Positions 1,173-63,796 of a stretch of DNA of 64,000 nucleotides are shown piece after piece (within the stretch, counting starts at the first letter, position 1; each line of letters opens with the position of its first letter). Both the position numbers and the translations under genes were made by a program. The notes beneath the pieces are model-generated. The model saw only the letters and a list, made by a program, of their open reading frames with translations. It had not been told where the DNA came from and did no database searches. The stretch comes from Cantharellus purpuraceus (taxonomy: Eukaryota; Basidiomycota; Agaricomycetes; Cantharellales; Hydnaceae): positions 310,001 through 374,000 of the forward strand of contig JALBUN010000022.1 of NCBI GenBank assembly GCA_025174535.1. Direction: 5' to 3'.

Positions 1173-1894
1173 ATGATTGAGGTCTTATCCTCAATGATGT
1201 CAAATCCTTTGGCAAACATGAGCGTGGCTGAGCTTGAGCAGTTGCTCTTGGCCCGATGGAAGGAAGAGGAAGAGGAGCGGAGATGGAAAGAGGAGGAGGA
1301 GGCAGAACAGAGACAGGAGGAGGAGGAGGAACGGAGATGGAAGGAGGAGGAGGAAGCGGAACGGAGATGGAAGGAGGAGGAGGAAGCGGAACGGAGATGG
1401 AAGGAGGAGGAGGAAGTGGAACGGAGATGGAAGGAGGAGGAGGAAGCAGAACAGAGATGGAAGGAGGAGGAGGAGGAGCAGAGACAGAAGGAGGAGGAGG
1501 AGCGGAGACGGAGACGGAATGGAGAAGGAAGGAGGAGGAAGCAAAAGCTGAGAGAGCCCGCAGGGTCAAGGAACTTGCAGCCACGATGGAGGCTGCGAGA
1601 CTGAAGGAAGTGGAAGAGCAGGCACATGAGCTAGAAGCCGCCATGGAGGTAGAGGAGGTGACCAGGGCAGGGGTGACCAGTCACCCAGGGAGTCCAAGTG
1701 TGCCAATATGGGCAGGGACCCCCGAGGTCACTATCATCTTGATTATGCGGATGGAGACAACCCATCCAACAACTGTCCCTACGGTGGACTCACTGTTACG
1801 TCTGCAGTCACAGCCATTATTTGCAGTGGGTGCAGCTGAGGAAGATGACACGGCGGAGGTGGAGAGGGTGGAGGTGGAGGCGGATCCCAATGCC
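1173..1894 (+). pseudogene. Antisense charged-repeat ORF of E1, copy 1, truncated
   Basis: The 5' portion of the accessory ORF that this Ty3 family carries on the strand opposite gag-pol. It opens with MIEVLSSMMSNPLANMSVAE, followed by tandem repeats of a unit like ERRWKEEEEA encoded by a ~30-bp minisatellite. The frame is lost around 1500, and readable pieces continue in another frame to about 1890. At 1894/1895 it is joined directly to the integr­ase part of pol on the opposite strand. A deletion has therefore removed its C-terminal half, including the zinc-cluster segment, together with the chromodomain end of pol. It is best compared with copy 3 at 43982. Confidence 0.7.
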
Positions 1895-4731
1895 AGGCAA
1901 ACTCTGTGATCGGAAGTAGGTCAGCCCAGTTGTCTTGTTGATAGTTACAATAGACTCGGAGATATTGTTCCAGGGACTGATTCATTCATTCCATTTGTCC
2001 ATCTCTTTCGGGATGGTGAAATGAAGCTTCATGTCAAGAGCTTTTCCTAATGTGTGGAAGAAGGAGGAGACAAACTCTGAGCCCTGATCAGACATGACAT
2101 GCAATGGGACTCCGTGTTTAGAAAATACATGGAGAATGAATAACTTAGCTAGTGAGGCAGAGGTGATGGTGTCATGCATCAGGATGAATAGTGACTGTTT
2201 AGTGAACCTGTCGACAATCACAAGTATGGTGTCATATCCGAGTGACGGGGGGAGTTTCTCTATGAAATCCATGGAGATGGAGTTCCATGGTTGCTCCGGG
2301 ACTGGAAGTTGCTTAAGCATTCTGTAGGGTTTGTGCCTTTGCAATTTTGAGTGCATACACATGGTACAGGAGTTACAGTAGTGTTGAATGTATTCTTGCA
2401 TTTTTGGCCATATGTAGTCTTGTTGGATTAACCCTTGTGTGTGATTTTGCCCAAAATGGCCAGAGATCAGGTGATCATGATAATACTGCAAAACTCGGAG
2501 TCAGAGACCATGGGCATTGGGGACATATATCTGGTTGTTGTGTCGGAGGTGTCCTTTGGGGTCAAGTGACCATTTCGGATCGGAAGGGTTGTTCAAGTGT
2601 TTAACTGCAACAGGATCAGATCGGAGTGATGAGCGGATGTTGGAGCGGAGTTGGTCAATGTCCATAATGGTAACAGCTTGGAGGGTGGGAGTCATGAGGG
2701 TGGATGCTCGTAGGGACAATGCCAGCTGCTCATTAGTGAACACAGGACGAAGGTTGTGTGGGTTTACAGTGGCATAGTCGCTACTCCCCTCTTTAGGGTA
2801 GACATCCCAGCATCTAGTTAACGTGTTGGGCTTTGCTCTGAGTCGACCAGGACAGAAACAGATAACGAGATTGAACTGAGATAGGTATTCAGACCATCGG
2901 ACTTGTCTCTGGGTGAGCAGTTTCATTGTTGAGAAGTATTCCAAGTTCTTGTGGTCCATTATGATGTCCACCGGATTGGAGGGGCCTTTGAGGTAATGTC
3001 TCCATATCCAGAAGGCTTCATATATGGCAAGGAGCTCTTTGTCACGGACATCATAGTTCAGTTCGGGGGGCATAAATGTACGTGAGTGAAAAGCGATTGG
3101 ATGGACTTGTCCATCATCCAGAGAGATGATGGACAGGATCGCAGCAAGTGCATAGTTGGAGGCATCGGTCTCTAATAGGATAGGAACGTCTGGAACCCAA
3201 TGAGTCAGTATCAGAGCGGAAGTAAAGGCCTTTTTCAAGGTCTCAAAGCTCTGTCTACATTCATCAGTGAAATTCCATTGGGTACCCTTCCTAGTAAGTT
3301 GGGCGAGCGGAATGGTGATATCGGAGTAGCTGTAAATGAAGCGGCGGTTGAAGTTGGCGAACCCCAGGAAGGACTATATGTCTTTGACTTTCCGTGGTTC
3401 TGGCCATTCCTGTATGGCTTTGATTTTGTCATTGGACATTGTCAGTCCTGCCAGGGAGAGGATATAGCCTAGATATTCAACCGAGTCAGAGTGGAATTCG
3501 CATTTGTCAGCGCAGGCAAAGAGGCCATGTTTTCAGAGACATCAGAGTACCTCTCGGACATGTGTCCAATGCTCTTCTTTGTTATCCAAATATACCAAAA
3601 TGTCATCTAAGTAAATGAAGACGGTCACATCGAGGAGGTCAGCAAAGGTGTCATTCATGAACCTCTGGAACATGGCTGGAGCATTGGTTAGTCTGAAGGG
3701 CATGACACACCATTCAAAAGATCCATATCACATGCAGAAAGTCATTTTCCATTCGTCGCCTTCTTGGATGCAGACTAGATGGTAGGCATGTCGGAGATCT
3801 ATTTTGGAATAGATCTTAGCCTTTTGAGGACTCTTGAGTAGGTCCGTGGTGCAGGGTATTGGGTATCGGTCTTTCTTGGTGATCTTGTTAAGTCCACGGA
3901 AGTCGATGCATAGGCGGAGTGATCCATCCTTTTTGCGGACAAACAGGACCAGAGCTCCATTGGGAGATAGGGATGGGCGGATGAAGCCCATGGCCAAGTT
4001 CTCGTCTATGAATGTTTGGAGAGCCAGTAGCTCTTTTTGGGATAGTGAGTAGATAGGGCCAAGTGGAGGGGTGGAGTTGTCAGATCAGAGAGGTGAACCT
4101 GGAACGTGTGAGAGCCATCCAGTTCGCTTAGTCTGGCAAAGACCATAGCGTCCACCATTGATATAAACGGCGGGGTAGACGGAGTATCTGTCAGAGTGGA
4201 GTTAGCGGAGGCAGAAGATAGTTTTGCACCTAAAGTTGCTGGTGACGTCAGGGATGACACAGCCTGTACTGGGGAATGGAATGTGATATGGCCCAATGCC
4301 CAGTCAATGGATTGTAGCGGGTGAGCCAATTATGTCTGAGAACCACAGAACAGCTGGAGTCAAGTGGAGTAACATAAAATGTAAGGTTCTGGATTTCTCT
4401 GACAGAAAAACAGATAGACAGATCTATAGCTTGTGAAACAACAGCATTAGTAGTGCCATCAAATAATCAGAGTGATATTGGAGTTATGGTGTATGTATGG
4501 ACTTTATGTAGATTGGAAAAAGAGGAATTGAGAAAACAGTGAGTAGAACCAGAGTCAATTAATGCTTGGATAGTGATATCGGGAATGGTGTTGGAGTAGA
4601 TGAGGAGGGTAAGGGAGTCAGAGTGGGAAAGAGTGGATGTGTTCAGGTGGACCTCGTTTGTCGTATGGGGAGTACCAATGCAGCCCTCAGCCCATACGGA
4701 GGCTATAGGACTGCTTACTATTTTTTTTGGT
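1895..4731 (-). pseudogene. pol of Ty3/gypsy element E1 (PR-RT-RNase H-integrase), decayed
   Basis: Reading down the minus strand: a retropepsin with LIDSG near 4550, the RT block '[20 protein letters not shown]' with its [20 protein letters not shown] core (3997-3728), the catalytic YLDD near 3597, RNase H with an ETDAS motif (3238-2501), and the integrase zinc region and DDE core (2491-1982). The longest open pieces are 245 and 169 codons; stops and frameshifts separate them. Pol is in the -1 frame relative to gag. Two codons that are TGA in E2 are still CGA here (3554-3556 and 2843-2845). The 3' end, including the chromodomain, has been deleted at 1894/1895. Confidence 0.85.
4718..4730 (-). 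promoter_or_regulatory. Putative -1 frameshift site, gag-pol of E1
   Basis: A run of eight A on the minus strand (T8 at 4721-4728) ends gag as A AAA AAA TAG. Pol lies open in the -1 frame immediately after. The run is kept at eight bases in E2 (34189-34196) and E5 (60970-60977). Frameshifting itself is inferred. Confidence 0.55.
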
Positions 4732-18153: not shown

Positions 18154-18180
18154 GCCAACGCTCGTCTACTCTCAACCGCC

Positions 18181-31106: not shown

Positions 31107-32472
31107 CTACAACGTTCCTTTTAGCAAGAAATTTACAAGAGGCTTTGGATCAAAGTGACTCCCTGTTCTCCGATTCCCCGTTCTCTGACACCTTCTCCAA
31201 TCCCTCATTCCCTGTCCCTTCCTGCTCCAAGTCATCATCCAAATGATGGATGTTCTCCAAAGGGTTCCAACTCCCTGAGGAGCTGGATTACATGATGCCC
31301 ACTGCTCCTCACTCTTTGAGTCAAGGATCTCTGAGATCTCATATTCATTTTCTCCTATGATGGTCAATCCCCAGGTGCCCAAAGCGACAGTGCCAGAGTT
31401 GTAGATCCAGTGACTTGGACGCAGCAATGTGTGCAGTGTGAGAGAGTGTTGCCATCCAGGTATGCCAGTCTCTCCTTGACCAAGTTCAATGGGAGCTCTA
31501 TGAGGTTTGAGTTCCTTAAACCAATGGCAATGTGGAATCATATGTAATGAAGCCCCTGAATCAGTGCACCAAAGGGAACTGGTATCAGAGACAAGGTGTG
31601 CATGATGAGGAGAGGGAATGCTTGTGGTGGTAAATGCTGATCCTGCAACTTCAACAACAGAGGAGGTAGATTCATCCGCCTGTTTTGCCTTCTGCTTCTG
31701 CTTCTTCTCCTGCTTAGCTGTCTGTCTGCACTCCAGATTTGCCTTCTTGGCATTGGCTAGAGCAAAGCAAACATTGGTGTTGTGAGTGGATGCTTGGCAG
31801 AAGTTGCACCATTTAGAGGATGTTGAAGCAGGTGGTTTGTTGGACAGCATGGCTGATTGAACAGAACGATGCAGATGGTTGTTCTCCTCCGTGATAAAGG
31901 CTTCAATAACTTTGGCTTTGTTAATGTCCTTTTGAAGCAGTAACGCAGATGTGAAGCTGTCAATCTCTGCTATGACTTTGGGGATCAAACTTGCCATTGA
32001 TCCTACACCCTCCTTGCCAACCCTGACAACGATCACAGGACCAAAGGCAGCAGGTTGGACCAGTGGGCCATACACACTTCATGCCTGCATCATGACACAA
32101 GTTGCATATTACACCCAGACTGCTGAATGGCTCTGTCAGAGCCAGAGCCTTGGGAGGTCCGCTCCTTTTTGATGCAGCCTCCAAGTGCTCCCTCTCCTCC
32201 TCCTTGTCCTGCTGCTCTGCTTCAGCTTTCTCCATCTCACACTTGCGAAGTTGAATTGCTGACCTAGCAACATGCAGCTCCTTCTTGCAAGTCACCACTA
32301 CACAATCCTCTGCTTTATGCCATATGACCCTCCAATCTGCCTCCCACTTCTCCGTATTAGTGCTCAGGTATGCCTTTAATGAGAAAACTGCAACCTTGAG
32401 GTTCTTCTTTGTAGTAGCAGCATATAGCTCTGCCTGTTTGTGAGCTTCAACTGCAGCTACCCAGGCCATCTC
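31107..32472 (-). pseudogene. Chimeric retroelement relic: antisense-ORF C-terminus, copia gag, chromodomain piece
   Basis: Read down the minus strand from 32472: GAGATGGCCTGGGTAGC continues the antisense ORF of the Ty3 family (MAWVAAVEAHKQAELYAATTK) through its six-cysteine block (CNLC...KC...SCDRC...GGC, C-X2-C-X6-C-X12-C-X2-C-X6-C) to about 31985. It then runs without a break into copia gag (DSFTSALLLQKDINKAK, zinc knuckle CNFCQASTHNTNVC, protease LWCTDSGASLHM), then a short copia pre-integrase piece, and near 31360 into the Ty3 chromodomain start (ENEYEISEILDSK). The rest to 31107 is unassigned. The 5 bases GAGAT at the right edge are the target duplication of the Ty3 insertion that starts at 32473. 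Confidence 0.7.
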
Positions 32473-33048
32473 TGTTATGACTATATTCATTAACACCCAG
32501 ATCCCCATCCGATCCCCTCAGATCCCTGTGCAGATGAAATCTATACTCCATTTGGAAACCACTACATCTCCATTTACCTGTCCGATTGTCACCGCTGATT
32601 CCGCCCATCCGTCTCCGGTTCTGATTGATGCATCAGCATCACCATAGGAACCCGGACATCCGTCCCCGTCGGACTCGGACATACTCACATAAGGCTGTCG
32701 GCCTCAGAGACCCATCACCGGAGTAATTATTATTAGATTTTGAATATGTATTTAAGTTGCCCGACTGGGGACTTCATTCCCCAGTTTGAATATCGAATCA
32801 CGCCTAGCTCCTAAGCCCGATCCTAACTCTCTAAGTTGTACTCCGTCTCCAAAATCTCGGACACCGGTATTAGTGAGGGTGCAGCACATAAGCTGAAGCC
32901 AAGTCCGTTCCGACCCCCACGACGTACTCCAACTCCAACCCAACCTCCAACCCAACCTCCAACCCAACCTCCAACCCAACCTCCAACCCAACCTCCAACC
33001 CAACCTCCGATCCAATCTCCAACCCCAAATCGGACCTAGTGCGTAACA
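32473..33048 (+). repeat. 5' LTR of Ty3/gypsy element E2
   Basis: 576 bp, TGTTATGACTATATTC...GTGCGTAACA, followed by gag on the same strand. It contains about six copies of the 12-bp unit CCAACCCAACCT at ~32935-33008, the reverse complement of the unit expanded in E1's 5' LTR. The 5 bp before it (ATCTC, = GAGAT on the minus strand) match the GAGAT at 43332-43336 beside the LTR at 43337, which I take as the other end of the same insertion. Confidence 0.9.
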
Positions 33049-34199: not shown

Positions 34200-36308
34200 T
34201 AAGCAGTCCTATAGCCTCTGTACAGGCTGAGGGCTGCATTGGTACTCCCCGTACGACAGACGAGGTCCGCCTGAACACATCCGCTCTTTTCCACTCCGAC
34301 TCCCTTACCCTTCTCGTCCACTCCGACTCCATTCCCGATACCACTATTCAAGCATTAATTGACTCCGGTTCTACTCACTGTTTCCTCGATTCCTCTTTTT
34401 CTGATTTACATAAACTCCATACATACACCATAACTCCGATACCACTCCAATTATTTGATGGCACTACTAATGCTGTTATTTCACGAGCTATAGATCTGTC
34501 TATTCGTTTTTCTGTCGGAGAAATCCAGACCCTTACATTCTATGTTACTCCGCTTGACTCCAGCTGTTCTGTGGTTCTTGGACATAACTGGCTCACCAGC
34601 TACAATCCGTTGATTGACTGGGCATTGGGCCATATCACATTCCGTTCTCCAGCACAGGCTGTGTCATCCCTGACGTCACCAGCAACTTTAGGTGCAAAAC
34701 TATCTTCCGCCTCCACTAACTCCGCTCTGACAGATACTCCATCTACCCTGCCGTTTATATCAATGGTGGACACTATGGTCTTCGCCAGACTAAGCGAACT
34801 GGATAGCTCTCACACGTTCTAGGTTCACCTCTCTGATCCGATATTCCTCACCACCCATTCTGCCTGATCAACTCCACTGGACCTATCTAAGGTTCCTAAG
34901 GAGTATCATGAGTTCGCCAACGTGTTTAACAAGTCTAAAGCTGACTCCCTAGCAGAACACCGACCATACAATCTCAAGATTGAGTTGGATGACAACTCCA
35001 CCCCTCCACTTGGCCCTATCTACTCACTATCCCAAAAAGAGCTACTGGCTCTCCGAACATTCATAGACGAGAACTTGGCCACAGGCTTCATCCGCCCATC
35101 TCTATCTCCTCATGGAGCTCCGGTCCTATTTGTCCGCAAAAAGGATGGATCACTCCGCCTATGCATCGACTTCCATGGACTTAACAAGATCCACCAAGAA
35201 AGACCGATACCCAATACCCTGCACCGCGGACCTACTCAAGAGTCCTCGAAAGGCTAAGATCTATTCCAAAATAGATCTCTGACATGCCTACCATCTAGTC
35301 TGCATCTGAGAAGGCAATGAATGGAAAATGACCTTCCGCACACAATATGGATCTTTCGAGTGGTGCATCATGCCCTTTGGACTAACCAATGCGCTGGCCG
35401 CCTTCCAGAGGTTCATGAATGATACCTTTGCTGACCTCCTCGATGTGACTGTCCTTGTTTACTTAGACGACATTCTGGTATATTCGGACAACGAAGAAGA
35501 ACATCGGACACATGTCTGAGAGGTACTCCGACGTCTCTGAAAGCATGGCCTCTTCGCCCGTGCTGACAAATGCAAATTCCACTCCGACTCGGTCAAATAC
35601 CTAGGCTATATCCTCTCCCCAGCAGGATTGACAATGTCCAATGACAAAATCAAAGCCATACAGGAATGGCCAGAACCCCAGAAAGTCAAGGACGTACAGT
35701 CCTTCCTCGGGTTCGCCAACTTCTACCGCCGCTTTATTCACAGCTACTCCGATATCACTGTTCCGCTCACCCAACTCACTAGGAAGGGTATCCAATGGAA
35801 TTTCACTGACAAATGTAGACAGAGTTTTGAGACCTTGAAAAAGGCCTTTACTTCCGCTCCGATACTGACTCATTGGGTTCCAGACGTTCCCATCCTATTA
35901 GAGACCGATGCCTCCAACTATGCACTTGCCGCGATCCTGTCCATCATCTCTCCAGATGATGGACAAGTCCACCCGATTGCTTTTCACTTGCGTACATTTA
36001 CACCCCCCGAGCTGAACTATGACATCCATGACAAAGAGCTCCTTGCCATATATGAAGCCTTCCGGATATGGAGACACTACCTAGAAGGTCCCTCCGATCC
36101 AGTGGACGTCATAACTGACCACAAGAACTTGGAATACTTCTCCACAACGAAACTGCTCACCCAGAGACAAGTCCGATGGTCCGAATACCTATCTCAGTTC
36201 AATCTCATTATCCGTTTCCATCCAGGTTGACTCGGAGCAAAGCCTGACACGTTAACTAGACGCTGGGACGTCTACCCTAAAGAGGGGAGTAGCAACTATG
36301 CCACTGTA
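34200..36308 (+). pseudogene. pol of Ty3/gypsy element E2, 5' part (PR-RT-RNase H)
   Basis: Retropepsin with LIDSGSTHCFLDSSF, RT with [17 protein letters not shown] and [12 protein letters not shown] (intact catalytic YLDD, ~35460), connection and RNase H with LETDASNYALAAILS. It is broken by several stops; those at 35517-35519 and 36228-36230 are TGA where E1 keeps CGA. At 36308 the frame is interrupted by a copia LTR after CTGTA. The missing remainder (integrase, chromodomain, antisense ORF, 3' LTR) is found in inverted orientation at 43337-49628. Confidence 0.85.
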
Positions 36309-36462: not shown

Positions 36463-37206
36463 GGTTATGGGCCCCGGCCTCCAGCTCTAAACAGTTGTTC
36501 CAACATACTTATATCATCAAAATCCTCTCATTTCCATCCACCTTTTCCAACCCACTCATCCCCCATTAAACAACAACTTCAACCTCAATCACACTTCACT
36601 TTTTGGCCCACCACATCCTCCCTTTCCCCCTCAGTTTCTCCCAGCAGTCATCTCTTCAGCCTCCAAAGGGTTTCAGGTTCCAGTGGTGAGAAAGGATCCC
36701 TCCTCATTGCCTAGTGTTACAAAGCCACAACCCTGGCCTTAGTTCCCCGGTTGACTGAGGCCTCTTGTTAACCTTGGGTGCTGGAGTCTGTGGTCTGCAG
36801 ACTCATAACAGTTCACCTGATTTGCGGCAAGGTCGTGCCATCTCATTCTGAGTCCTGTTGTCCCTGAAGTTGCTGGGAGTTGATTGGTGCCATTTGGACC
36901 ATTTTCTCTATCCTCAGGACCCCTCTGGACAACTCAGGACCGTTTTTGGACACCCTAGGACTATTACCTCTCGGATTTGGTGCTCTGCACTTATTCTTAC
37001 TCCCCTGCACTTCCTGTGTGCGTACCACCTCCCACATCTTGCCCACGCAGTGCTTGCACCCGCTATAACCACCTTACAACACTGCGAACCTATCCTATCA
37101 CACGTTCACTTGCATTTGGACTTGAATACGCTTAGCCAAACTTTACTCATATCTCACCCAATTCGTCTACCTCATACCTATCCCTCGCTGCACATACCTA
37201 TAAACC
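36463..37206 (+). other. Copia leader with putative half-tRNA primer site
   Basis: The bases right after the LTR, GGTTATGGGCCC, complement the anticodon arm of an initiator tRNA-Met (GGGCUCAUAACC) with one mismatch, which suggests priming from an internal tRNA fragment as known for copia-type elements. The rest of this 744-bp leader shows no supported gene before the gag ATG at 37207. The copy-2 counterpart (53954-54327) lacks the LTR and the first ~375 bp. Confidence 0.5.
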
Positions 37207-42479: not shown

Positions 42480-43336
42480 GTATCTCCATTAAGGCCAAGC
42501 CCTTGAGGCCTCATGTCCATGGATTGAATAGGTGAGACAGTTGGGTGCAGTCGGAGTTATACTGGGGGTCTGGAGACATATAAAAGGAGGGGCATGTTGA
42601 GGTCTTATCCTCAATGATGTCAAACCCTTTTGCAAGTATGAGTGTGGCTGAGCTCAAGCAGTTGCTCCTGGCCTGACAGAGGGAAGAAGAAGAGGAGCAG
42701 AGATAGAAGGAGGAGGAGGAGGAATGGAGATGGAGGGAGGAGGAGGAGGAATGGAGATGGAAGGAGGCACAGGAGACAGAATGGAGACAGGAGGAGGAGG
42801 AGGCAGAATGGAGATGGAAGGAGGAGGAGGAGGAGGAATGGAAACAGAAGGAGGCAAAGGAGGTAGAAAGGAAATGGAAGGAGGAAGAAGCAAAGGCAGA
42901 GCGAGTATGCAAGGTCAAGGAGCTTGTGGCCACAATGGAGGCTGCAAGGCTAAAGGAAGTGGAGGATCAGGCGCATGAGTAGAGGCTGCCATAGAGGTAG
43001 AGGAGGAGGTGACTGGGCAACTAGTCACCTGGGGAGTCCAAGCATGCCAATATGGGCATGGACCCCCAAGGTCGCCATTATCTCGGTCACACGGATGGAG
43101 TCAACCCATCTGACAACTGCCCCACTGGTAGACTTGCTGGTGCATTTGCAACCATGGCCATTATTTATGGCAGGTGCAGCTGAAGAGGATGATGACACAG
43201 CAGAGGCAGAGAGGGTGGAAGCAGAGGCAGATCCTGATGCAGACATGGAGCTCGATGCAAATGCAGAGCCTGAGGCAGGTGTGGATGTCAGGATGGAGGT
43301 GAAGCCTGATCCGACCTTGAACCGTTACAAGGAGAT
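42480..43336 (+). pseudogene. Antisense charged-repeat ORF, copy 2, interrupted at GAGAT
   Basis: Degenerate version of the antisense ORF: TATAAAAG at 42579-42586, then MSNPFASMSVAELKQLLLA, a stop (CCTGACAGA region), a G-rich charged repeat, and a C-terminal piece AEADPDADMELDANAEPEAG to the point where an LTR cuts it after GGAGAT (43331-43336). The sequence that should follow, GAGATGG(C/T)(C/T)TGGGTAGC, is at 32472 reading down the minus strand. The two halves thus flank one Ty3 insertion. Confidence 0.75.
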
Positions 43337-43864
43337 TGTTACGCACTAGGTCCGATTTGGGGTTGGAGATTGGATCAGAGGTTGGGTCGGAGGTTGGGTT
43401 GGAGTTGGAGTACGTCGTGGGGGTCGGAACGGACTTGGCTTCAGCTTATGTGCTGCACCCTCACTAATACCGGTGTCCGAGATTTTGGAGACGGAGTACA
43501 ACTTAGAGAGTTAGGATCGGGCTTAGGAGCTAGGCGTGATTCGATATTTGAACTGGGGAATGAAGTCCCCAGTTGGGCAACTTAAATACATATTCAAAAT
43601 CTAATAATAATTACTCCGGTGATGGGTCTCTGAGGCCAACGGCCTTATGTGAGTATGTCCGAGTCCGATGGGGATGGATGTCCAGGTTCCTATGGTGATG
43701 CTGATGCATCAATTGGAACCGGAGACAGATGGGCGGAATCAGCGGTGACAATCGGACAGGTAAATGGAGACATGATGGTTTCCAAATGGAGTATAGATTT
43801 CATATGTGCAGGGATCTGAGGGGATCGGATGGGGATCTGGGCGTTAATGAATATAGTCATAACA
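43337..43864 (-). repeat. 3' LTR of Ty3/gypsy element E2/E4
   Basis: 528 bp, plus-strand ends TGTTACGCACTAGG and ATATAGTCATAACA. Preceded by the target duplication GAGAT (43332-43336) and followed by the antisense ORF in the canonical 3' arrangement. Its 12-bp minisatellite is short compared with the 5' LTR at 32473. Confidence 0.9.
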
Positions 43865-43966: not shown

Positions 43967-43974
43967 TATAAAAG
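43967..43974 (+). promoter_or_regulatory. TATA box of antisense ORF copy 3
   Basis: TATAAAAG, 15 nt before the ATG at 43982 and 39 nt before the in-frame ATG at 44006. Conserved at the same place in copies 1, 2 and 4. Confidence 0.55.
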
Positions 43975-43981
43975 GAGGGGC

Positions 43982-45905
43982 ATGATTGAGGTCTTATCCT
44001 CAACAATGTCAAACCCTTTGGCAAGCATGAGCGTGGCCGAGCTGGAGCAGCTGCTCCTGGCCCGATGGAAGGAAGAGGAAGAGGAGCGGAAACGGAAAGA
44101 GGAGGAGGAAGCAGAACGGAGACGGAAGGAGGAGGAGGAGGCGGAACGGAGGCGGAAGGAGGAGGAGGAGGCGGAATGGAGACGGAAGGAGGAGGAGGAG
44201 GCGGAACGGAGATGGAAGGAGGAGGAGGAGGTGGAACGGAGACGGAAGGAGGAGGAGGAGGCGGAACGGAGATGGAAGGAGGAGGAGGAGGTGGAATGGA
44301 GACGGAAGGAGGAGGAGGAGGCAGAACAGAGACGGAAGGAGGTGGAATGGAGACGGAAGGAGGAGGAGGAGGAGGCGGAACAGAGACGGAAGGAGGTGGA
44401 ATGGAGACGGAAGGAGGAGGAGGAGGCGGAACAGAGATGGAAGGAGGAGCAGGAGCAGCGGCAGAAAGAGGTGGCGAAAACAGAACGGAGAAGGAAAGAG
44501 GAGGAAGCAAAAGTCGAGAGGGCCTGCATGGTGAAGGAACTTGCAGCAGCGATGGAGGCTGTGAGACTGAAAGAAGTGGAGGAGCAGGCACACAAGTTAG
44601 AGGCCACCATGGAGGTAGAGGAGGAGGTGACCGGGGCAGGGGGAACCAGCCACCCAGGAAGTCCGAGTGTGCCAATACGGCCAGGGACTCTGGAAGTGGC
44701 CATCATCTCCGTTACACGGATGGAGATGACTCGTTCAAGGACTGTCACTGTGGAGGACTCGCCATTACATCCGCGGGCACAGCCCCTATTTGAGTTGGGG
44801 GCAGCTGAGGAAGATGATGCGGTGGAGACGGAGAGGGTGGAGGTGGAGGCGGATCCCAATGCCAATGTGGATCTCGGTGCGAATGTGGAGCCTGAGGCAG
44901 GCGTGGATGTTGGGACGGACGTGGAGCCAGATCCCACTTCAAATTCCTATGAGGAGATGGCTTGGGTAGCTGCAGTCGAGGCTCGCAAAAGAGCGGAGCT
45001 CTATGCTGCGACCACCAAGAAGAATCTCGATGTCGTGGTCTTTTCATTGAAGGCCTACCTGAGTGCTGATATGGAGAAGTGAGAGGCGGACCAGAGGGTC
45101 ATATGGTGCAAGGCGGAGAGTCGCATGTTGGCGACCCATAAGAAGGAGCTGCGTGTCGCGAGGTCGGCGATCCAGCTTTGCAAGCACGAGATGGAGAAGG
45201 CGGCGGCAGAACAGCAGGACAAGGAGGAGGAGAGGGAATGCTTGGAGGCCGCAGTGAGAAGGGGCAGGCCACCCAAGGCTCTGGCTCCAATGGAGCCATT
45301 TGGTGGACCCAGCGTAACTTGCGACTTATGTTGTGATGCGCGTGTGGAGTGCATGTGGCCTACCAGCCCAACTCGCCGACTTCGGTCCTGCGATTGTTGT
45401 CGGGGTCGGAAAGGAGGGTGTAGGATCGATGGGAAGTTCAATCCCCGGAGTCGGAGCGTCAAGCCCCGACTAGTGGTACAAGGAGGGGCAGAGAAGGAAT
45501 CGGAGGGTTGTCTGACCAAAAAGAGGCGGACGGAGACGGGTGCTGTGGCAGCTGGGGGTAGCGGTGTCAGATCAGAAGGGGCGACGACTGGTGCAGGTAC
45601 GGGGCGCGTTTCGGCACCCAATAGCACTGTGGGCCAGCTTATCTGGCTGGTTAACCTGCAGTCAGAGCACCTTCAGCAGACGGAGGGGTTGTTAGTAGAC
45701 TTGGTGAGGACAATGAACGGAAGGAGGTTCTGGAGGGTTGTCGGACAGCCAAGTTATATCAGTTGCGGAAATTCATGGCCCCGTTGGATGAGGATTTGGA
45801 CATGGGAGATGAGAAGGATTGGGTGTCGGATGTAGAGAGTGATGAGGAGTCAGAGACGGAGCCTGAGGTAGATAAGGGAAAGGGAAAAAGGAAACACGAT
45901 GTATA
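43982..45905 (+). pseudogene. Antisense accessory ORF of the Ty3 element, best-preserved copy (charged helix plus Zn2Cys6-like block)
   Basis: Encodes about 640 residues if two lesions are ignored: a TGA at 45080-45082 (TGG in the copy at 32400) and a one-base shift near 45720. Domain order: MSNPLASMSVAELEQLLLARW; about fifteen repeats of the type ERRRKEEEEA (residues ~20-165), expected to form a single charged helix or coiled coil; a second helical part; an acidic linker ([20 protein letters not shown]); KKELRVARSAIQL helix; then CDLCCDARVEC, 12 residues, CDCCRGRKGGC at about residues 445-480, i.e. C-X2-C-X6-C-X12-C-X2-C-X6-C; KKRRTET basic stretch; and a Lys/Asp-rich tail ending KGKGKRKHDV. 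It sits between pol and the 3' LTR on the strand opposite to gag-pol. Function unknown; DNA binding is inferred from the cysteine spacing. Confidence 0.75.
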
Positions 45906-46069
45906 AAATAAGAATGAAAATGATTATAAATTTTGAAACAGAGAAAAATGAGGCGGAGTGATTCCTTTGGAGCTTTTGGGCAGGCATGCAATTTCCCTTG
46001 ACTTGTAATAAAATGACGATGCAAAATAATAACATTAGCATTAGTAATTGAACTTCGTAAGGGGGCCAG

Positions 46070-47501
46070 TGTATGGGAACCACCTTTTCCCTATCAAATT
46101 CCATTTATGCAGCACCAATGTGCTATTCTTTGCTTTTCCATTCCTAAATATCCGCATATATTTGATGCTTGTACCTGGAATGGACTTATTCAAATATTCT
46201 CTATTTTTCCATATTTTTTCGGGAATATTCCATGCAGAACTCGGCTCAGAATCATTTATTTCTGCTGTGCTACAGTTGTGGACCCATAGGCGCCCACAAA
46301 CCTTCGCGCAGCCGGCTCTCCCCTTTTGGACCAGGCATTTGGCCTCAATTCAAGCTCAGATGTCTCTGATCAATAAATATTCTGTAACTTAACAACCACA
46401 GCCTCTCAGGGCACTATTTTCCGTGGAGATCATCACATGACATGTGGCTATCCATGGCTGTCCAAACCAGTGCAGAAAACAGGGTGGACACCCTTCTTTT
46501 TGCCTGATCAGTGCCTAGTTCAGGGATCAGATCAGCTGATGGGTGATCAAATCAGGTGATTGCCTTGGAATATTCTACCCCTTTCCATAACATTCTAGCT
46601 GTTTCCCTCTATTATTAGATAGAACTTTCCAGAACCATTATTCAGCTCCTGATCAGTGTTAGTGCTGTGATCAGATCCTGTGATTGGCTTGGAATATTCT
46701 ACCCCTTTCTTCCACCTTCCACAACCTTCCAGTAGTTTCCATCTATTAATAGGTAGAATATTCCAGAAGCATTAGTCAGCCCCTGTAAATACAATATATA
46801 AGGAGGCCATTCTGCCTCTGAAAGAATAACATATCATCATATTCTACCCATCTTCTGCACACCAGTGTGACTAGAGTGACATACAGTGTCATCCTCTATC
46901 TCAGTAACTGTTGATTACCAGTTCAAGGATCTTTTACAGTTGTGTAACTGTACTTGATTGCACTCGAAGTAGTGATATTCCTGCTTTGGGCGTGAGTGTA
47001 GTATCTGCCTCACGTGACTACGAATCTACAGGGTGAGATTGTCTGTCGATAGTCCTGCCATTAGTGCTCTTGTTTAAGTAACTAGTGTGTACTGCCTTTG
47101 CAGAGCATTAGAAGCTTGAACTCGTGTGAAGCAGTTGCTAGACTACTTCACACATTGCTGTTACCCGCTTCTGAGTGCCACTGGTTGGACGGTTGGATTC
47201 ATCCACCTACTTCCTTTAGCCTCTAAGTGCATTCCCCTCTTTTTGGAATATCTGGACCCCTAAGCGTCCGTGAACTCTAGACTCTGGAAGTCTTATTCAT
47301 TTCTTGCTGCTAAGAAACGTATTACCTTTCTGCGTATAGTCTGCATTGACCAATACAAAGGATTGTAACCAAAGTACAAACGTTAAATCGTTTCTGGAGT
47401 TGTGCTGCAGCAGGGTTTGATATTCTTCTCAGCTGTTCATTCACGGAATTGTGGTGATTTAGAGTTTGCCCTAACACCATAATTTTGCGGGTTCCAAAAC
47501 A
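46070..47501. repeat. 1432-bp solo LTR (large LTR family), copy 1
   Basis: Begins TGTATGGGAACCACC and ends GGTTCCAAAACA, flanked on both sides by GCCAG (46065-46069 and 47502-47506). Without it the Ty3 sequence reads GGGGGCCAGGTTTGTCTGG, as in the copy near 62860. A TATA-like ATATATAAGG at ~46797 fits an LTR promoter. No ORF of note is inside. The second copy, also exactly 1432 bp, is at 54784. Confidence 0.8.
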
Positions 47502-47506
47502 GCCAG

Positions 47507-49628
47507 GTTTGTCTGGATAAGCGGAGTGAAAATCGGAGACGGATTCAGATGTGTGATCGAGTTTGGACGCGGAGATCCATGAGGATTCTTCATCGGTGCC
47601 TTCGTATCCAGTCCATTTGACTAAGTACTGGAGCTTGCACTTGTATCGATGGTCGATCTTTGAGTCCAGGATCTCAGATATCTCATATTCATTGTCTCCT
47701 TCGATGATGATCGGGGGAGGGGGAGGTTGCGTGCGACCAGAGATCTCGTTCATAGTAGCAGGTTCGAGCATTGATATATGGAAGACCAGATGAACTGCTT
47801 GGAAGTGGTCCAGGAGGCGGAGGGTGAAAGACCTGCTGCCCGTGCGAGCAATGACCTCATAAGGACCTAAGTATTTCTCGGAGAGTTTCTTCAATGGATG
47901 GGTGGTCCAGAAGTGTTCAGCCTTAACGAATACTTTGTCTCCAATTTGCAGGTCCAGAGCCGGAATGCAGCGTCGGTCTGTGGAGACTTGATATTGTTTC
48001 TGAGCATCGGAGATTGTCTCTCAGAGATGTTGGTGTAGTTGATCAAGGTCGGTTATGAATTGGCGGGCTTTGGTGGAGGCAAGTTCTTTTTTGGGGTGGA
48101 CAGAGATGTTTGGATGGTAGCCTTTGACGCTTGTTCGGAATCATGTCAGTATACAATATTCTGATGTATAGGAGATATACATCAGGATTTCAATGATACA
48201 TAAAGCCAGGGAGTTACAATTTGGATATCTTAAAAGATTTCGGATGTGTGAAATTTTCATAAATATAAACATATATTCTATATTTTAATAAACTTTAAAA
48301 GATAAGATATTTGGTTGAGATGAACATAATTATTTACATGGATATAATAGGAATGTATATATGAATATAATTGGTATTATATAGGGTATTTAGATATACA
48401 AATACCAGGTGGGGATTAAAGATAGTTCAAATAATGTTACAAGTATTGTATAAGAAAGAATCAATGATATTTGGATGTTCCTTCAAGAGAGTTGCCACCA
48501 CTAAATGGGGAAAAAACAATTATTTTTGAGAATTATGCCAAAATATCACAATATGTTTTAATCTAGTATATTGTGTAAAATTTGAGAATCATGTTGAAAT
48601 ATGAAAATAAGTTTGAATTGAAGTGTATTGTATAAAATTTGAGGAAAATAGGTTGTACATACGTATTTGTTGTATTTCTGAATAAGCGTCTTTATTAGCA
48701 AAGAACGGAGAGATGCCGGTAGTCGCGTTCAGAGCATTGTTGTAGGCAAACTCTGCGATCGGAAGTAGATCAGCCCAGTTGTCTTGTTGATAGTTACAAT
48801 AAATTCAGAGATATTGTTCCAGGGGCTGATTCATTCGTTCCGTTTGTCCGTCTCCTTCAGGGTGGTATCCGGAGGTGAAATGAAGCTTCATGTTGAGAGC
48901 CTTTCCTAATGTGCGGAAGAAGGAGGATACGAACTCCGAGCCCCGATCGGATGTGACATGCAATGGGACTCCGTGTTTAGAGAATACGTGGAGAACGAAC
49001 AATTTAGCTAGTGAGGTGGAGGTGATGGTGTCATGCGTCAGAATGAATAGGGACTGTTTGGTGAACCTGTCGACAACCACGAGTATGGTGTCATATCCAA
49101 GCGATGGGGGGAGCTTCTCTATGAAATCCATGGAGATGAAGTTCCATGGTTGCTCCGGGATCGGAAGTTGCTTAAGTGTTCCATAGGGTTTGTGTTTTTG
49201 CGATTTTGAGCGCATACACATGGTACAGGAGTTACAGTAGTGTTGAATGTATTCCTGCATTTTTGGCCATACATAGTCTCGTCGGATTAATCCTTGTGTG
49301 CGATTTTGCCCGAAGTGGCCGGAGATCGGGTGATCATGATAATACTGCAAAATTCAGAGTCAGAGGCCATTGGCGTCGGGGACGTATATCTGGCCATTGT
49401 GTCAGAGGTGCCCTTCGGTGTCAAGTGACCATTTTGGATCGGAAGGGTTGTCCAAGTGTTTAACCACAACAGGATCAGATCAGAGTGATGAGCGGATGTC
49501 GGAGTGGAGTTGGTTGATGTCCATAATGGTGACAGCTTGGAGGGTGGGAGTCATGAGGGTGGATGCTTGTAGGGACAATGCCAGCTGCTCATTAGTAAAC
49601 ACAGGACGAAAGTTGTGTGGGTTTACAG
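47507..49628 (-). pseudogene. pol 3' part of Ty3 element E4 (integrase, GPY/F module, chromodomain)
   Basis: Minus strand from 49628: HNFRPVFTNEQLALSL linker, integrase zinc region (YHDHPISGHFGQNRTQGLIR ... CNSCTMC), DDE core (MDFIEKLPPSLGYDTILVVVD, SDRGSEFVSSFFRTL, YHPEGDGQTERMNQ), then a 565-bp MITE at 48126-48690, then KYLGPYEVIARTGSRSFTLRL (GPY/F module) and a chromodomain (YEISEILDSKIDHRYKCKLQ, YLVKWTGYEGTDEESSWI). This is the missing 3' half of E2: CTGTA at its upper edge (49624-49628 region, read on the minus strand as CTGTAAACCC) matches the CTGTA at 36304-36308. Confidence 0.85.
48126..48690. mobile_element. 565-bp MITE, copy 1
   Basis: AT-rich, non-coding, with terminal inverted repeats GACGCTTGTTC.GAA and TTC.GAATAAGCGTC. 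Flanked by TTT on each side; the uninterrupted site in E5 (near 57391) reads AGCCTTTATTAGC, so a 3-bp target duplication is shown directly. A second copy of the same length is at 58350. Confidence 0.85.
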
Positions 49629-49782
49629 TGTAGAGCTCAAAAGCGAAGTTGTATGTTATTAGATAAGCCAAAATACAAACTCAGCAAAAAAGCGAAATTG
49701 TAACACATAAAACACTCATATCTTCTCACAGAATAATCCATATCATACCAAACTTTCCAGGGACCTTCAGTGCATTCCAACA
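49629..49782 (-). repeat. 3' LTR of Ty1/copia element, copy 2
   Basis: 154 bp, reverse complement of 36309-36462 with no difference seen. In element orientation it is preceded by a purine tract (GAGGGGGTG) that can serve as the polypurine tract, and is followed by the target duplication CTGTA. Confidence 0.9.
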
Positions 49783-52700: not shown

Positions 52701-52893
52701 GTTGCCATCCAGGTATGCCAGTCTCCCCTTGACTGTCGCAGTACATATCAGTTTACCCAACTTGTAGAATTTCACAACCGCTCCTATGATTTCCACACGA
52801 ATCTGACGGTGCATGGTCAAGAAGAGGAGTGAGAGGAGGTTGTTTGCAAGTTTGGGAACATAGAGTACATTCTGAACAGTATAGGTTTCAAGT
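49790..52893 (-). pseudogene. pol of Ty1/copia element, copy 2, two one-base deletions
   Basis: Same protein as copy 1 but with the complete RNase H (AYCDANYAGDEDRRRSTTGY, KHIDVMYHWLREKV, ADVLTKSL) and the true stop at 49790. Two homopolymer runs are one base shorter than in copy 1: GGGG to GGG at ~52576-52578 and AAAA to AAA at ~51149-51151. They split pol into three open pieces. The gag-pol frame switch seen in copy 1 is present here too. Confidence 0.9.
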
Positions 52894-54753: not shown

Positions 54754-56719
54754 TGTTACACACTAGGTCTGATTGGGGGTCAGTGCATGGGAATCACCTT
54801 TTCCCTATCAAATTCCATTTATGCAGCACCAATGTGCTATTCTTTGCTTTTCCATTCCTAAATATCAGCATATATTTGATGCTTGTACCTGGAATGGACT
54901 TATTCAAATATTCTCTATTTTTCCATATTTTTCTGGGAATATTCCATGCAGAACTCGGCCCAGAATCATTTATTTCTGCTGTGCTACAGTTGTGGACCCA
55001 TAGGCGCCCACAAACCTTCGCGCAGCCGGCTCTCCCCTTTTGGACCAGGCATTTGGCCTCAATTCAAGCTCAGATGTCTCTGATCAATAAATATTCTGTA
55101 ACTTAACAACCACAGCCTCTCAGGGCACTATTTTCCGTGGAGATCATCACATGACATGTGGCTATCCATGGCTGTCCAAACCAGTGCAGAAAACAGGGTG
55201 GACACCCTTCTTTTTGCCTGATCAGTGCCTAGCTCAGGGATCAGATCAGCTGATGGGTGATCAAATCAGGTGATTGCCTTGGAATATTCTACCCCTTTCC
55301 ATAACATTCTAGCTGTTTCCTTCTATTATTAGATAGAACTTTCCAGAACCATTATTCAGCTCCTGATCAGTGTTAGTGCTGTGATCAGATCCTGTGATTG
55401 GCTTGGAATATTCTACCCCTTTCTTCCACCTTCCACAACCTTCCAGTAGTTTCCATCTATTAATAGGTAGAATATTCCAGAAGCATTAGTCAGCCCCTGT
55501 AAATACAATATATAAGGAGGCCATTCTGCCTCTGAAAGAATAACATATCATCATATTCTACCCATCTTCTGCACACCAGTGTGACTAGAGTGACATACAG
55601 TGTCATCCTCTATCTCAGTAACTGTTGATTACCAGTTCAAGGATCTTTTACAGTTGTGTAACTGTACTTGATTGCACTCGAAGTAGTGATATTCCTGCTT
55701 TGGGCGTGAGTGTAGTATCTGCCTCACGTGACTACGAATCTACAGGGTGAGATTGTCTGTCGATAGTCCTGCCATTAGTGCTCTTGTTTAAGTAACTAGT
55801 GTGTACTGCCTTTGCAGAGCATTAGAAGCTTGAACTCGTGTGAAGCAGTTGCTAGACTACTTCACACATTGCTGTTACCCGCTTCTGAGTGCCACTGGTT
55901 GGACGGTTGGATTCATCCACCTACTTCCTTTAGCCTCTAAGTGCATTCCCCTCTTTTTGGAATATCTGGACCCCTAAGCGTCCGTGAACTCTAGACTCTG
56001 GAAGTCTTATTCATTTCTTGCTGCTAAGAAACGTATTACCTTTCTGCGTATAGTCTGCATTGACCAATACAAAGGATTGTAACCAAAGTACAAACGTTAA
56101 ATCGTTTCTGGAGTTGTGCTGCAGCAGGGTTTGATATTCTTCTCAGCTGTTCATTCACGGAATTGTGGTGATTTAGAGTTTGCCCTAACACCATAATTTT
56201 GCGGGTTCCAAAACAGTCAGAGATTTGGTCAGAGGTTGGGTCGGAGTCAGAGAGGGAGTCGGGGTATGTTGTGGGGGTCAGAATGGACTTGGTTTCAGCT
56301 TATGTGCTGCGCCCTCACTAATACCGGTGTCCAAGATTTTGGAGACAGAGTACAACTTAGAGAGTTAGGATCAGACTTAGGAACTAGGCATGATTTGATA
56401 TTCAAACTGGGGAATGAAGTCCCCAGTTGGGCAACTTAAATACATATTTGAAATCTAATAATAATTACTCTGGTGATGGGTCTCTGAGGCTGACAGCCTT
56501 ACATGAGTATGTCTGAGTCCGATGGGGACGGATGTCCGGGTTCCTATGGTGATGCTGATGCATCAATCGGAACCAGAGATGGATGGGCAAGATTCGGTGG
56601 TGACAATTGGACAGATAAATGGAGACGTGACGGTTTCCAAATGGAGTATAGATTTCATATGCATGGGAATCTGAGTGGATCGGATGGGGATCTGGGCATT
56701 AATGAATATAGTCATAACA
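54754..56719 (-). repeat. 3' LTR of Ty3/gypsy element E5, split by a solo LTR
   Basis: Plus-strand ends TGTTACACACTAGG and ATATAGTCATAACA. Removing the nested element and one GTCAG leaves 529 bp. Inside it lies the 1432-bp LTR at 54784-56215. After it, only ~20 bp of antisense-ORF leader (TATCTCTCCATTTAAGGC) remain before chromodomain sequence, so E5 has lost its antisense ORF. Confidence 0.85.
54784..56215. repeat. 1432-bp solo LTR (large LTR family), copy 2
   Basis: Begins TGCATGGGAATCACC, ends GGTTCCAAAACA, flanked by GTCAG at 54779-54783 and 56216-56220. Very close to copy 1, with only a handful of substitutions noticed. Confidence 0.85.
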
Positions 56720-56739
56720 GTATCTCTCCATTTAAGGCG

Positions 56740-59700
56740 GTAATGGAACTTAAAGATTCATAAGAGGGCCAGGTTTGTCGGGATAAGCAGAGTGAAAATC
56801 AGAGATGGATTCAGATGCATGATTGAGTTTGGACGTGGAGATCCATGAGGACTCTTCATTGGTGCCTTCATATCCAGTCCATTTGACTGGGTACTGGAGC
56901 TTGCACTTGTATCGACGATCAATCTTCAAGTCCAGGATCTCAGATATCTCATATTTGTTATCTCCTTCAATGATGATCGGAGGAGGTGGAGGTTGCGTGT
57001 GACCAGAGATCTCATTTGTAGTAGCAGGTTTGAGCATTGATATATGGAAGACTGGATGAACTGCTCAGAAGTGGTCAGGGAGGTGGAGGGTGAAGGACCT
57101 GCTGCCTGCATGAGCAATGACCTCATAAGGACCTAAGTATTTCTCAGAGAGTTTCTTCAATGGACAGGTGGTCTGGAAATGTTCAGCCTTAACGAATACT
57201 TTGTCTCCAATTTGCAAGTCTGGAGCCGGAATGGTGTTGGTCTGCAGAGACATGGTATGGTTTCTGAGCATCAGAGATGGTTTCTGGGAGATGTTGGTGT
57301 AGTTGATTGAGGTCAGTTACAAATTGGCGGGCTTTGGTGGAGGCAAGTTCCTTCTCAGGGTGGACAGAGATGTTCGGATGGTAGCCTTTATTAGCAAAGA
57401 ACGGAGAAATGCCAGTAGTTGCATTTGGAGCATTGTTGTAGACGAACTCTGCTATCAGAAGTAGATCAGCCCAGTTGTTTTGTTGATAGTTACAATAGAC
57501 TCAGAGATATTGTTCCAGGGACTGATTCATTTGTTCTGTTTGTCTGTCTCCTTCAGGATGGTATCCAGAGGTGAAATGAAGCTTCATGTTGAGAGCCTTT
57601 CCTAATGTGCAGAAGAAGGAGGAGACAAACTCTGAGCCCTGATCGGATGTGACATGCAATGGGACTCCATGTTTAGAAAATATGTGAAGAACAAACAACT
57701 TAGCTAGTGAGGCAGAGGTGATGGTGTCATGCGTTGGAATGAATAGTGACTGTTTAGTGAACCTGTCAACAATCACAAGTATGGTGTCATATCTGAGCGA
57801 TGGGGGAAGCTTCTCTATGAAATCATGGAGATGGAGTTCCATGGTTGCTCTGGGACTGGAAGTTGCTTAAGCATTCCGTAGGGTTTGTGCCTTTGCAATT
57901 TTGAGTGCATACACGTGGTGCAGGAGTTACAGTAGTGTTGAATGTATTCTTGCATTTTTGGCCATACATAGTCTCATCAGATTAACCCTTGTGTGCGATT
58001 TTGCCCAAAATGGCCGGAGATCAGATGATCATGGTAATACTGCAAAACTTGGAGTCAGAGACCGTTGGCGTCAGGGATGTATATCCGGTCATTTTGTCAG
58101 AGGTATCCTTTGGGGTCAAGTGACCACTTTGGATCGGAAGGGTTGTTCAAGTGTTTAACTGCAACAGGATCGGATTGGAGAGATGAGCAGATGTTGGAGC
58201 AGAGTTGGTCGATGTCCATAATGGTAACGGCTTGGAGGGTGGGAGTCATGAGGGTGGATGCCCATAGGGACGATGCCAGCTGCTCATTAGTGAACACAGA
58301 ACGAAAGTTGTGTGGGTTTACAGTGGCATAGTCGCTACTCCCCTCTTGAGACGCTTGTTCGGAATCATGTCAGTATACAATATTCTGATGTATAGGAGAT
58401 ATACATCAGGATTTCAATGATACATAAAGCCAGGGAGTTACAATTTGGATATCTTAAAAGATTTCGGATGTGTGAAATTTTCATAAATATAAACATATAT
58501 TCTATATTTTAATAAACTTTAAAAGATGAGATATTTGGTTGAGATGAACATAATCATTTACATGGATATAATAGGAATGTCTGTATTAATATAATTGGTA
58601 TTATATAGGGTATTTAGATATACAAATACCAGGTGGGGATTAAAGATAGTTCAAATTATGTTACAAGTATTGTATAAGAAAGAATCAATGATATTTGGAT
58701 GTTCCCTCAAGAGAGTTGCCACCACTAAATGGGGAAAAAACAATTATTTTTGAGAATTATGCCAAAATATCACAATATGTTTTAATCTAGTATATTGTGT
58801 AAAATTTGAGAATCATGTTGAAATATGAAAATAAGTTTGAATTGAAGTGTATTGTATAAAATTTGAGGAAAATAGGTTGTATATACGTATTTGTTGTATT
58901 TCTGAACAAGCGTCTGAGGGTAGACGTCCCAGCATCTAGTTAATGCATCGGGCTTTGCTCCAAGTTGACCTGGACAGAAACGGATGATGAGGTTTAACTG
59001 AGATAGGTATTCAGACCATCGGACTTGTCTCCAGGTGAGCAGTTTCATTGTGGAGAAGTATTCCAAGTTCTTGTGGTCCATTATGACGTCCACCGGATCG
59101 GAGGGGCCTTTGAGGTAGTGTCTCCATATCCGGAAGGCTTCATATATGGCAAGGAGCTCTTTGTCATGGACATCATAGTTCAGTTCAGGGGGCATAAATG
59201 TATCCGAGTGAAAAGTGATTGGATGGACAGGATTGCGGCAAGTGCATAGTCAGAGGCATCGGTCTCTAATAGGATAGGAACATCTGGAACCCAATGAGTC
59301 AGTATCGGAGCAGAAGTAAAGGCCTCTTTCAAGGTCTCAAAGCTCTGTCTACATTCGTCAGTGAAATTCCATTGGATACCCTTCCTAGTAAGTTGGGTGA
59401 GCAGGATGGTGATATTGGAGTAGCCGTAAATGAAGCGGTGGTAGAAGTTGGCGAACCCCAGGAAGGACTGTACGTCTTTGACTTTCTGGGGTTCTGGCCA
59501 TTCCTGTATGGCTTTGATTTTGTCATTGGACATTGTCAGTCCTGCCAGGGAGAGGATATAGCCTAGATACTTGACCAAGTTGGAGTGGAATTCGCATTTG
59601 TCAGTGTGGTTGAAGAGGCCATGTTTTTGGAGATGTCGGAGTACCTCTCAGACATGTGTCTGATGCTCTTCTTTGTGATCTGAATATACCAAAATGTTGT

Positions 59701-63035: not shown

Positions 63036-63796
63036 TTATACATCGCATTTCCTTTTTCCCTTCCCCTTATCTACCTCAGGCTCCGTCTCTGACTCATCAT
63101 CACTCTCTACATCCAACACCCAATCTTTCTCATCCCCCATGTCCGAATCCTCGTCCAAAGGGGCTATGAACTTCCGCAACTGATGTAACTTGGCTGTCCG
63201 CCGACCCTCCAGAACCTCCTTCCGTTTCATCATCTTCACCAAGTCCACTAGCAACCCCTCCATCTGCCGGAGGTGCTCCAACTGAAGGTTAACCAGCTGG
63301 ATAAGCTGGCCCATGGTACTATGGGGTGCAGAGATGTGCCCCGTACCTGCACTGGTCATTGCCCCTTCCGATCTGACACCGCTACCCCCGGCTGCCACAG
63401 CACCTGTCTCTGTCTGCCATTTTTTGGTTGGATGACCTTCCGATTCTTTCTCTGCTCTTCCTCCTCCTTCCATCTCCGTTCTGCCTCCTCCTCCTCCTTC
63501 CATCTCCATTCCACCACCTCCTCCTCCTTCCGTCTCCATTCCTCCTCCTCCTCCTTCCGTCTCCATTCTGCCTCCTCCTCCTCCTCCTTCTGTCTCCATT
63601 CCTCCTCCTCCTCCTCCTTCTGTCTCCTTTCCTCCTCCTCCTCCTCCTCCTTCCGTCTCCGTTCTGCTTCCTCCTCCTCTTTCCATTTCTGCTCCTCTTC
63701 CTCTTCCTTCCATTGGGCCAAGAGCAACTGCTCAAGCTCAGCCACGCTCATGCTTGCCAAAGGGTTTGATATTGTTGAGGATAAGACCTCAATCAT
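63036..63796 (-). pseudogene. Antisense charged-repeat ORF, copy 4, internally deleted
   Basis: Opens MIEVLSSTISNPLASMSVAE on the minus strand, i.e. opposite to E6 gag-pol and convergent with the chromodomain, as in the other copies. After ten or so E/R/K repeats it jumps to the C-terminal part (EKESEGHPTKKWQTETGAV ... KEVLEGRRTAKLHQLRKF ... KGKGKRKCDV) in another frame. The whole zinc-cluster segment is missing. It shows that the antisense position is a family feature and not a rearrangement of one copy. Confidence 0.75.

Follow-up and report, generated by a model that had tools for sequence, protein, structure and literature searches.

Genes on the strand opposite gag-pol have been described in LTR retrotransposons of both fungi and plants. 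The Boty element of Botrytis cinerea and Sclerotinia sclerotiorum has an antisense gene, brtn, between pol and the 3' LTR (PMC7264820), and brtn (Zhao 2011, as described by others) is also mentioned elsewhere (PMC8365987, PMC4227169, PMC5987419). The plant genes grouped as aORF-3R include gene23 of Grande and the antisense ORFs of RIRE2, Retand and PvRetro13 (PMC7264820, PMC11963269). An own promoter and a nuclear protein are reported for Grande gene23 (PMC7264820, PMC11963269). The Retand ORF encodes TRP28 (PF04195), for which DNA binding is predicted (PMC11963269), and tandem repeats occur in the corresponding region in about half of the elements studied (PMC7264820, PMC11963269); the PvRetro13 ORF encodes an SMC domain (PMC7264820, PMC11963269). 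The function of retrotransposon antisense genes is called unknown in these accounts (PMC7264820, PMC11963269).

A fungal chromovirus with an antisense ORF as numerous as pol

The window considered here is the whole 64,000-nucleotide stretch of Cantharellus purpuraceus DNA that was analysed, from a genome of 40.15 Mb in 50 contigs. It contains copies of a Ty3/gypsy chromovirus, about 7.9 kb long and flanked by 5-bp target duplications, in which an ORF of about 585 codons lies between pol and the 3' LTR on the strand opposite gag-pol; the genome has around four hundred copies of this element. We propose, with a probability of roughly 0.6, that the ORF represents a true accessory gene belonging to the element, probably with its own TATA promoter, and that its product would most likely be a nuclear accessory protein that binds nucleic acid.

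The family is a chromovirus by the RNase H, integrase and C-terminal chromodomain of its pol. In a Pfam search, RT_RNaseH, Integrase_H2C2, SH3_Tf2-1 and Chromo (PF00385, E 3.9e-07) scored above the cut-off, while rve fell just below it in the pol of locus L011 and above it in that of L017. Three loci (L016, L017 and L024) are full elements: each has two LTRs in direct orientation, with starts about 7.4 kb apart, an ORF region just inside one LTR, and pol frames that read from the other strand. LTRs begin with TG and end with CA, and four of five loci that were read have 5-bp duplications (TCACC, ATCTG, CTAGA and TCCTT); L011, which adjoins another LTR piece, was left out of that judgement. Identity within six LTR pairs is 92-96%. 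Every difference within the L016 and L024 pairs is a transition, which, together with the CpG changes seen in the copies, suggests that decay after insertion is mostly of the CpG type. Across copies L003-L066, CpG transitions dominate the decay, a pattern that suggests methylation-linked mutation.

We counted five short sites across the genome, allowing up to three mismatches. The LTR-side junction of the ORF was found 417 times, the TATA/start region 401 times and the first cysteine triplet 376 times; the corresponding counts for pol were 422 (SH3 region) and 415 (RNase H), and reversed control sites gave no match for any of the five. The copy at 56720 lacks the ORF; its junction, the one such junction tested, occurs once in the genome, in the window itself. 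These counts show that the ORF is about 1:1 in number with pol and is a constant feature of the family. Orientation is equally regular. We paired 36 exact-match cysteine sites on contigs C1-C9 with 100 pol sites among those listed (the totals being 376 and 422); for 26 of the 36 a pol site is listed within 4 kb downstream, always in convergent orientation, and the other 10 are without a listed partner. The convergence that had been noticed in the window, where the ORF starts at 43982 beside the LTR and runs toward pol on the opposite strand, is repeated at every paired site.

Broken copies in the window

The ORF copies in the window are broken (Table 1). The first-pass annotation, made from the letters of the window, had described four copies of one long ORF. 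Pieces of the ORF are indeed present at 1173-1906, 42596-43336, 43982 and 63796-63039, but the copy placed at 42480 and another described as a diverged copy belong together as the halves of a single older element, split by a younger one whose LTRs (43337-43864 and 32472 to about 33048) are both abutted by GAGAT. The copy at 1173 is the same ORF, cut at codon 242 and joined to pol. Nor is the focal copy at 43982-45905 one open frame: it is interrupted by a TGA (45080-45082) and shifts frame at about 45685-45715. The long frame is nevertheless real elsewhere. Of the 150 copies scored, 89 are free of stops over the matched part; for 46 of the 89, the open frame around it reaches at least 540 codons. 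The lack of a conserved open frame, named in the first-pass annotation as a refuting result, was not found. Stops recur at codons 28, 311, 410 and 440, mostly as CGA to TGA changes.

Table 1. Features of the antisense-ORF family in the window
Feature	Position	Strand	Remark
GAGAT target-site duplication, left side of younger element	43332..43336	.	Direct reading; second GAGAT abuts LTR end at 32472
3' LTR (gag-pol sense) of younger element	43337..43864	-	TGTTACG...CATAACA on +
Other LTR of younger element	32472..33048 (right end approximate)	+	Inverted now; 95% identical over 506 aligned bases
TATAAAAG, putative antisense-gene promoter (TATA)	43967..43974	+	About 103 bp inside LTR edge
Antisense ORF, focal copy	43982..45906	+	585 codons in L016
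30-bp tandem repeat coding the E/R/K-rich repeat	44070..44430	+	
Six-cysteine block	45320..45421	+	C-x2-C-x6-C-x12-C-x2-C-x6-C
pol, C-terminal part (SH3 and chromodomain side)	47502..48125	-	Convergent with focal ORF
pol, middle part, younger element	48673..49629	-	
pol, N-terminal part of aligned segment, beyond rearrangement	35775..36308	+	Presumably same element, from the common GAGAT
Older element ORF, codons 2-270	42596..43336	+	Interrupted by younger insertion
Older ORF, continuation, codons 269-436	31969..32471	-	Six cysteines all present
Truncated ORF copy, codons 1-242	1173..1906	+	Fused to pol by deletion
ORF copy without middle, including cysteine block	63039..63796	-	Codons 1-127 and 445-585
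ORF-less deletion derivative	56220..56760	+	pol directly after LTR

Two copia copies of 4047 bp, 99.93% identical, lie inverted to each other at 36833-40879 and 50283-54327, and what lies between them seems to be inverted with respect to the split Ty3 element. An inversion between the copia copies, or an assembly join, would explain why the two LTRs of the younger element face opposite ways. A 1.4-kb solo LTR of another element sits between the focal ORF and the C-terminal part of pol. This solo-LTR-like repeat, TGTATGGGAACC...GGTTCCAAAACA, is present in two copies that are 99.3% identical (about 46065-47502 and 54775-56216), flanked by GCCAG and GTCAG and each inserted in a member of the ORF-bearing Ty3 family. 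An inserted segment of 566 bp, 98% identical between copies, lies at different places within pol of two copies (48126-48691 and 58350-58915). The window also has a 79-bp unit present twice at 92% identity in its GC-richer part (17996-18154), and a 636-aa ORF on the minus strand (6630-8540) with no clear Pfam match (best E 0.13).

Purifying selection in the codon frame

The recurrent stops, mostly CGA to TGA changes, point to CpG decay, so we removed CpG sites before analysing selection. The first sample comprised 30 loci from the 150 scored copies (20 taken as 9-kb and 10 as 2.1-kb segments), together with L003, L006 and the window; of its 44 copy pieces, the 39 longer than 200 codons were used. 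In pairwise comparisons over codons 126-584, the N/S ratio for non-CpG transitions was 0.14 in frame, versus 1.88 and 3.12 in the shifted frames; for non-CpG transversions it was 0.53, versus 1.22 and 4.18. A dN/dS near 1, the first-pass annotation's other refuting result, was likewise not found. By region, the transition ratio was 0.13 in the coil, 0.13 in the block and 0.07 in codons 437-585, with a contrary signal in codons 126-260, where the non-CpG transversion ratio was 1.91.

Pairs of copies are not independent, so we also counted every column once. Shared variants, defined by a minor state in three or more copies, numbered 23/358, 8/334 and 63/325 at codon positions 1, 2 and 3 of the ORF, and 5/555, 5/599 and 53/545 in pol. 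When all variant columns were counted, singletons included, the in-frame ratio was 0.42 for the ORF as a whole and 0.66 for the block alone, with 0.57 in one of the antisense frames; the weaker ratio fits neutral decay after insertion. Because the first sample had been ranked by protein similarity, we picked 16 further loci on contig C1 by exact matches to the junction site alone. These gave 17 pieces, five of them shorter than 160 codons; L054, L058, L061 and L065 are also among the 150 scored copies, and L063 and L064 overlap. With the minor state in at least two copies, variants at the three positions numbered 36/353, 23/336 and 78/330 (p 2.5e-10, by a Fisher test, which here and below assumes independent columns). 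Stratification by base gave an odds ratio of 0.23 (z -8.05), so base composition does not account for the pattern.

Constraint is unevenly spread along the ORF. In the block, shared non-CpG variants fall at 1/67 first and second positions versus 6/37 third positions (p 0.008, 56 pieces). It is strongest in codons 437-585 (4/223 versus 24/112, CpG columns removed). In both of these regions it approaches that of pol; it is weaker in codons 1-260. Indels are a multiple of three in 153/302 cases in codons 1-125, 17/24 in codons 126-385 and 7/24 in codons 386-585; the figures are 7/34 for pol and 5/37 for the LTR.

The ORF is thus shown to be under purifying selection in its codon frame, and the antisense ORF family recognised in the first pass is borne out by pol domains, by copy number and by selection. 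The same data bear on two readings in which no protein matters. In one, a purine-rich repeat and biased decay have left a frame open by accident, with the cysteine codons escaping CpG change. Recurrent TGA at CGA codons is what such decay would produce, and stops are more frequent in pol (101 in 15037 codons) than in the ORF (20 in 15557), a difference that may be partly due to composition; but constraint remains after removal of CpG columns and outside the repeat, and is strongest in codons 437-585, leaving this explanation scarcely credible. In the other, antisense transcription itself would be functional, as a non-coding RNA acting in silencing or self-limitation, and the ORF would be a passenger. 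Such a transcript would overlap the element's 3' part, and for other elements the literature discusses non-coding roles of antisense transcription (PMC7264820). A passenger, however, would show neither frame-specific codon constraint nor the multiple-of-three indels of codons 126-385, and we consider this very improbable.

A putative promoter next to the 3' LTR

The motif TATAAAAG precedes the ORF start in all 31 copies that cover the place; a 32nd match stops short of the site. The first ATG of the focal ORF, at 43982, is only 15 nt past the start of this motif, whereas the ATG at 44006 (codon 9) is 39 nt downstream of it in the window copy, making codon 9 the likelier start. Shared variants are found at 0/40 positions between TATA and ATG, 3/86 between LTR and TATA, 11/340 in the LTR and 15/135 in the gap between ORF and pol. 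The LTR side is therefore conserved generally, and the TATA motif is not uniquely so. On these sequence features, the antisense gene is probably transcribed from a TATA promoter of its own that lies just internal to the 3' LTR.

A six-cysteine block that resembles a zinc cluster

The protein would consist of an E/R/K-rich repeat, a helical stretch, a six-cysteine metal block, a basic stretch and an acidic tail. In AlphaFold predictions for two window sequences, mean pLDDT was 49 and 48, too low to interpret the fold or to place the cysteines around metals. The helical stretch upstream of the block corresponds to residues 2-46 of the window piece 45125-45835, with pLDDT of 84-91 over the first 40. 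TKKR follows the block, and residues 541-585 contain 16 D/E versus 8 K/R.

The spacing of the cysteines is as the first-pass annotation gave it, and lies within the range permitted for Zn2Cys6 proteins. Cysteine is present in at least half of the copies at seven columns, each at 95% or more; six of the seven make up the block, which is complete in 41 of the 44 copies covering it. Retention of all six cysteines in a diverged copy despite changed neighbours had been taken as telling. The six are indeed kept at 31990-32470, but the neighbouring residues changed mainly by CpG decay (CGN to TGN or CAN), the main source of change, which the T and G of cysteine codons escape; cysteine retention alone is thus weak evidence.

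Membership of the Zn2Cys6 family, as originally worded, did not stand up. A Pfam profile search found no PF00172 match for the ORF or for five native ORF pieces, the latter to E<=10. Although hhalign placed the six cysteines in register with those of eight host and yeast zinc clusters, with a probability of 20.6%, scores as good as that of the real block came from 20 of 150 controls in which the non-cysteine columns had been shuffled. The canonical first half-site has the signature C-x2-C-[RKHSTACW]-x2-[RKHQ]-x2-C. This signature fitted 8/8 canonical first halves and 0/8 canonical second halves; in the element, it fitted the first half of the block, which is acidic, in 1/43 copies, and the second half in 30/43. 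By BLOSUM scores the second half of the block is like canonical first halves (1.64 versus -9.77 against second halves). The first half scored -2.46 against canonical first and -3.78 against canonical second halves, which is undecided, so a full swap of half-sites is only half supported.

One reading of these data is that the block is a true Zn2Cys6 member that the element took from a host gene, with the protein acting as a conventional sequence-specific activator. The spacing, the register of the cysteines and the acidic tail would all suit it. Given the missing profile match, the shuffles that score equally, the acidic first half and the failure of the canonical signature there in 42 of 43 copies, we think this unlikely. 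In the genome, scoring of all 44 candidates left 27 places that match PF00172, each of them more than 13 kb from every one of the 150 ORF copies listed. Alternatively, the block could be a metal-stabilised module for contact with RNA or protein, which might resemble a nucleocapsid or bind Gag or chromatin proteins of the host, rather than a reader of DNA. A metal-binding pattern that comes without family similarity and with an acidic first half is consistent with such a module; the basic half-site signature in the second half of 30/43 copies argues the other way. We regard this as possible, with the odds against it. Our preferred reading remains that of an accessory protein whose block resembles a zinc cluster and may work like one, possibly with reversed half-site order. 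The six cysteines would fold around zinc, the helical part would mediate self-association, and the protein would enter the nucleus and bind nucleic acid, most likely to assist or control the expression or integration of the element itself.

A more specific form of this idea can be framed around the LTRs, which carry 12-bp tandem arrays of variable copy number (for example, window 32929-33025 and 5917-6030). Zn2Cys6 proteins read the triplet CGG. In 27 LTRs, array units of the form GGGTnnnAG have CGG in 25 cases, TGG in 45 and CAG in 22, and TGG and CAG are likely decay products of CGG. The antisense gene might then encode a transcription factor whose zinc cluster has its half-sites in reversed order and which reads the 12-bp array GGTCGGAGGTTG, with one CGG per unit, at one end of the element's LTR, in a self-contained regulatory loop. 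We consider such a loop improbable. The G-rich strand of these arrays might also form a G-quadruplex.

Relation to known antisense genes and zinc clusters

Pfam contains no family that matches the ORF at cut-off, the sole match below it being Propeptide_C25 (E 0.039), and the native ORF pieces matched no Pfam family at all up to E 10. No homologue of the whole ORF or of residues 255-470 was found in the protein collection at E<=1e-3; the whole-ORF search scored the best 7987 word-sharing candidates, which were likely filled by the low-complexity repeat. As a positive control, pol gave 4667 relatives in the same collection, and the organisms named among the 120 listed are mushrooms (Trametes, Leucocoprinus and Coprinellus). 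Viral contigs gave no alignment for the ORF but none for pol either, and are therefore no test. Solved structures gave no match at E<=10. In the open-access literature searched (titles and abstract openings), no zinc-cluster ORF in an LTR element is described, and the terms "antisense" and "additional ORF" are absent from the main text of a fungal chromovirus paper (PMC2864245).

The first-pass annotation had supposed that no fungal counterpart was described. This holds for the zinc-cluster part alone, since brtn of Boty occupies the same place (PMC7264820). Like the element studied here, Boty is a fungal LTR element that has a chromodomain in gag-pol and, placed between pol and the 3' LTR, one additional gene on the antisense strand; its accounts mention no zinc-cluster-like block, and the comparison is by description rather than by sequence. 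The plant aORF-3R genes share the position and orientation of our ORF (PMC7264820, PMC11963269). They differ in having plant hosts, Retand belongs to a non-chromovirus lineage, and the fungal ORF has none of their Pfam families at cut-off. Among the features by which aORF-3R genes are recognised, position and orientation, presence in most copies and conservation like that of other element proteins (weaker in codons 1-260) are found in the fungal ORF; as for antisense transcription, the ORF shows the conserved TATA motif. By analogy only, HBZ of HTLV-1 and other retroviral antisense proteins are antisense-coded nuclear regulators (PMC11963269).

The likeness to PF00172 zinc clusters is of another kind. 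The six-cysteine spacing is the same and one half has basic residues, but there is no profile match, and the basic half of the element's block is the second while the first is acidic. The block may serve as a natural test of whether zinc clusters tolerate swapped half-sites, and is compact enough to be tested in yeast. The fungal case, with an antisense gene about as numerous as pol and selection at the protein level, bears on why retrotransposons repeatedly carry antisense genes. Given that antisense accessory ORFs have already been described in plants and, as brtn, in the fungal element Boty, we see the Cantharellus ORF as a variation on a known theme.
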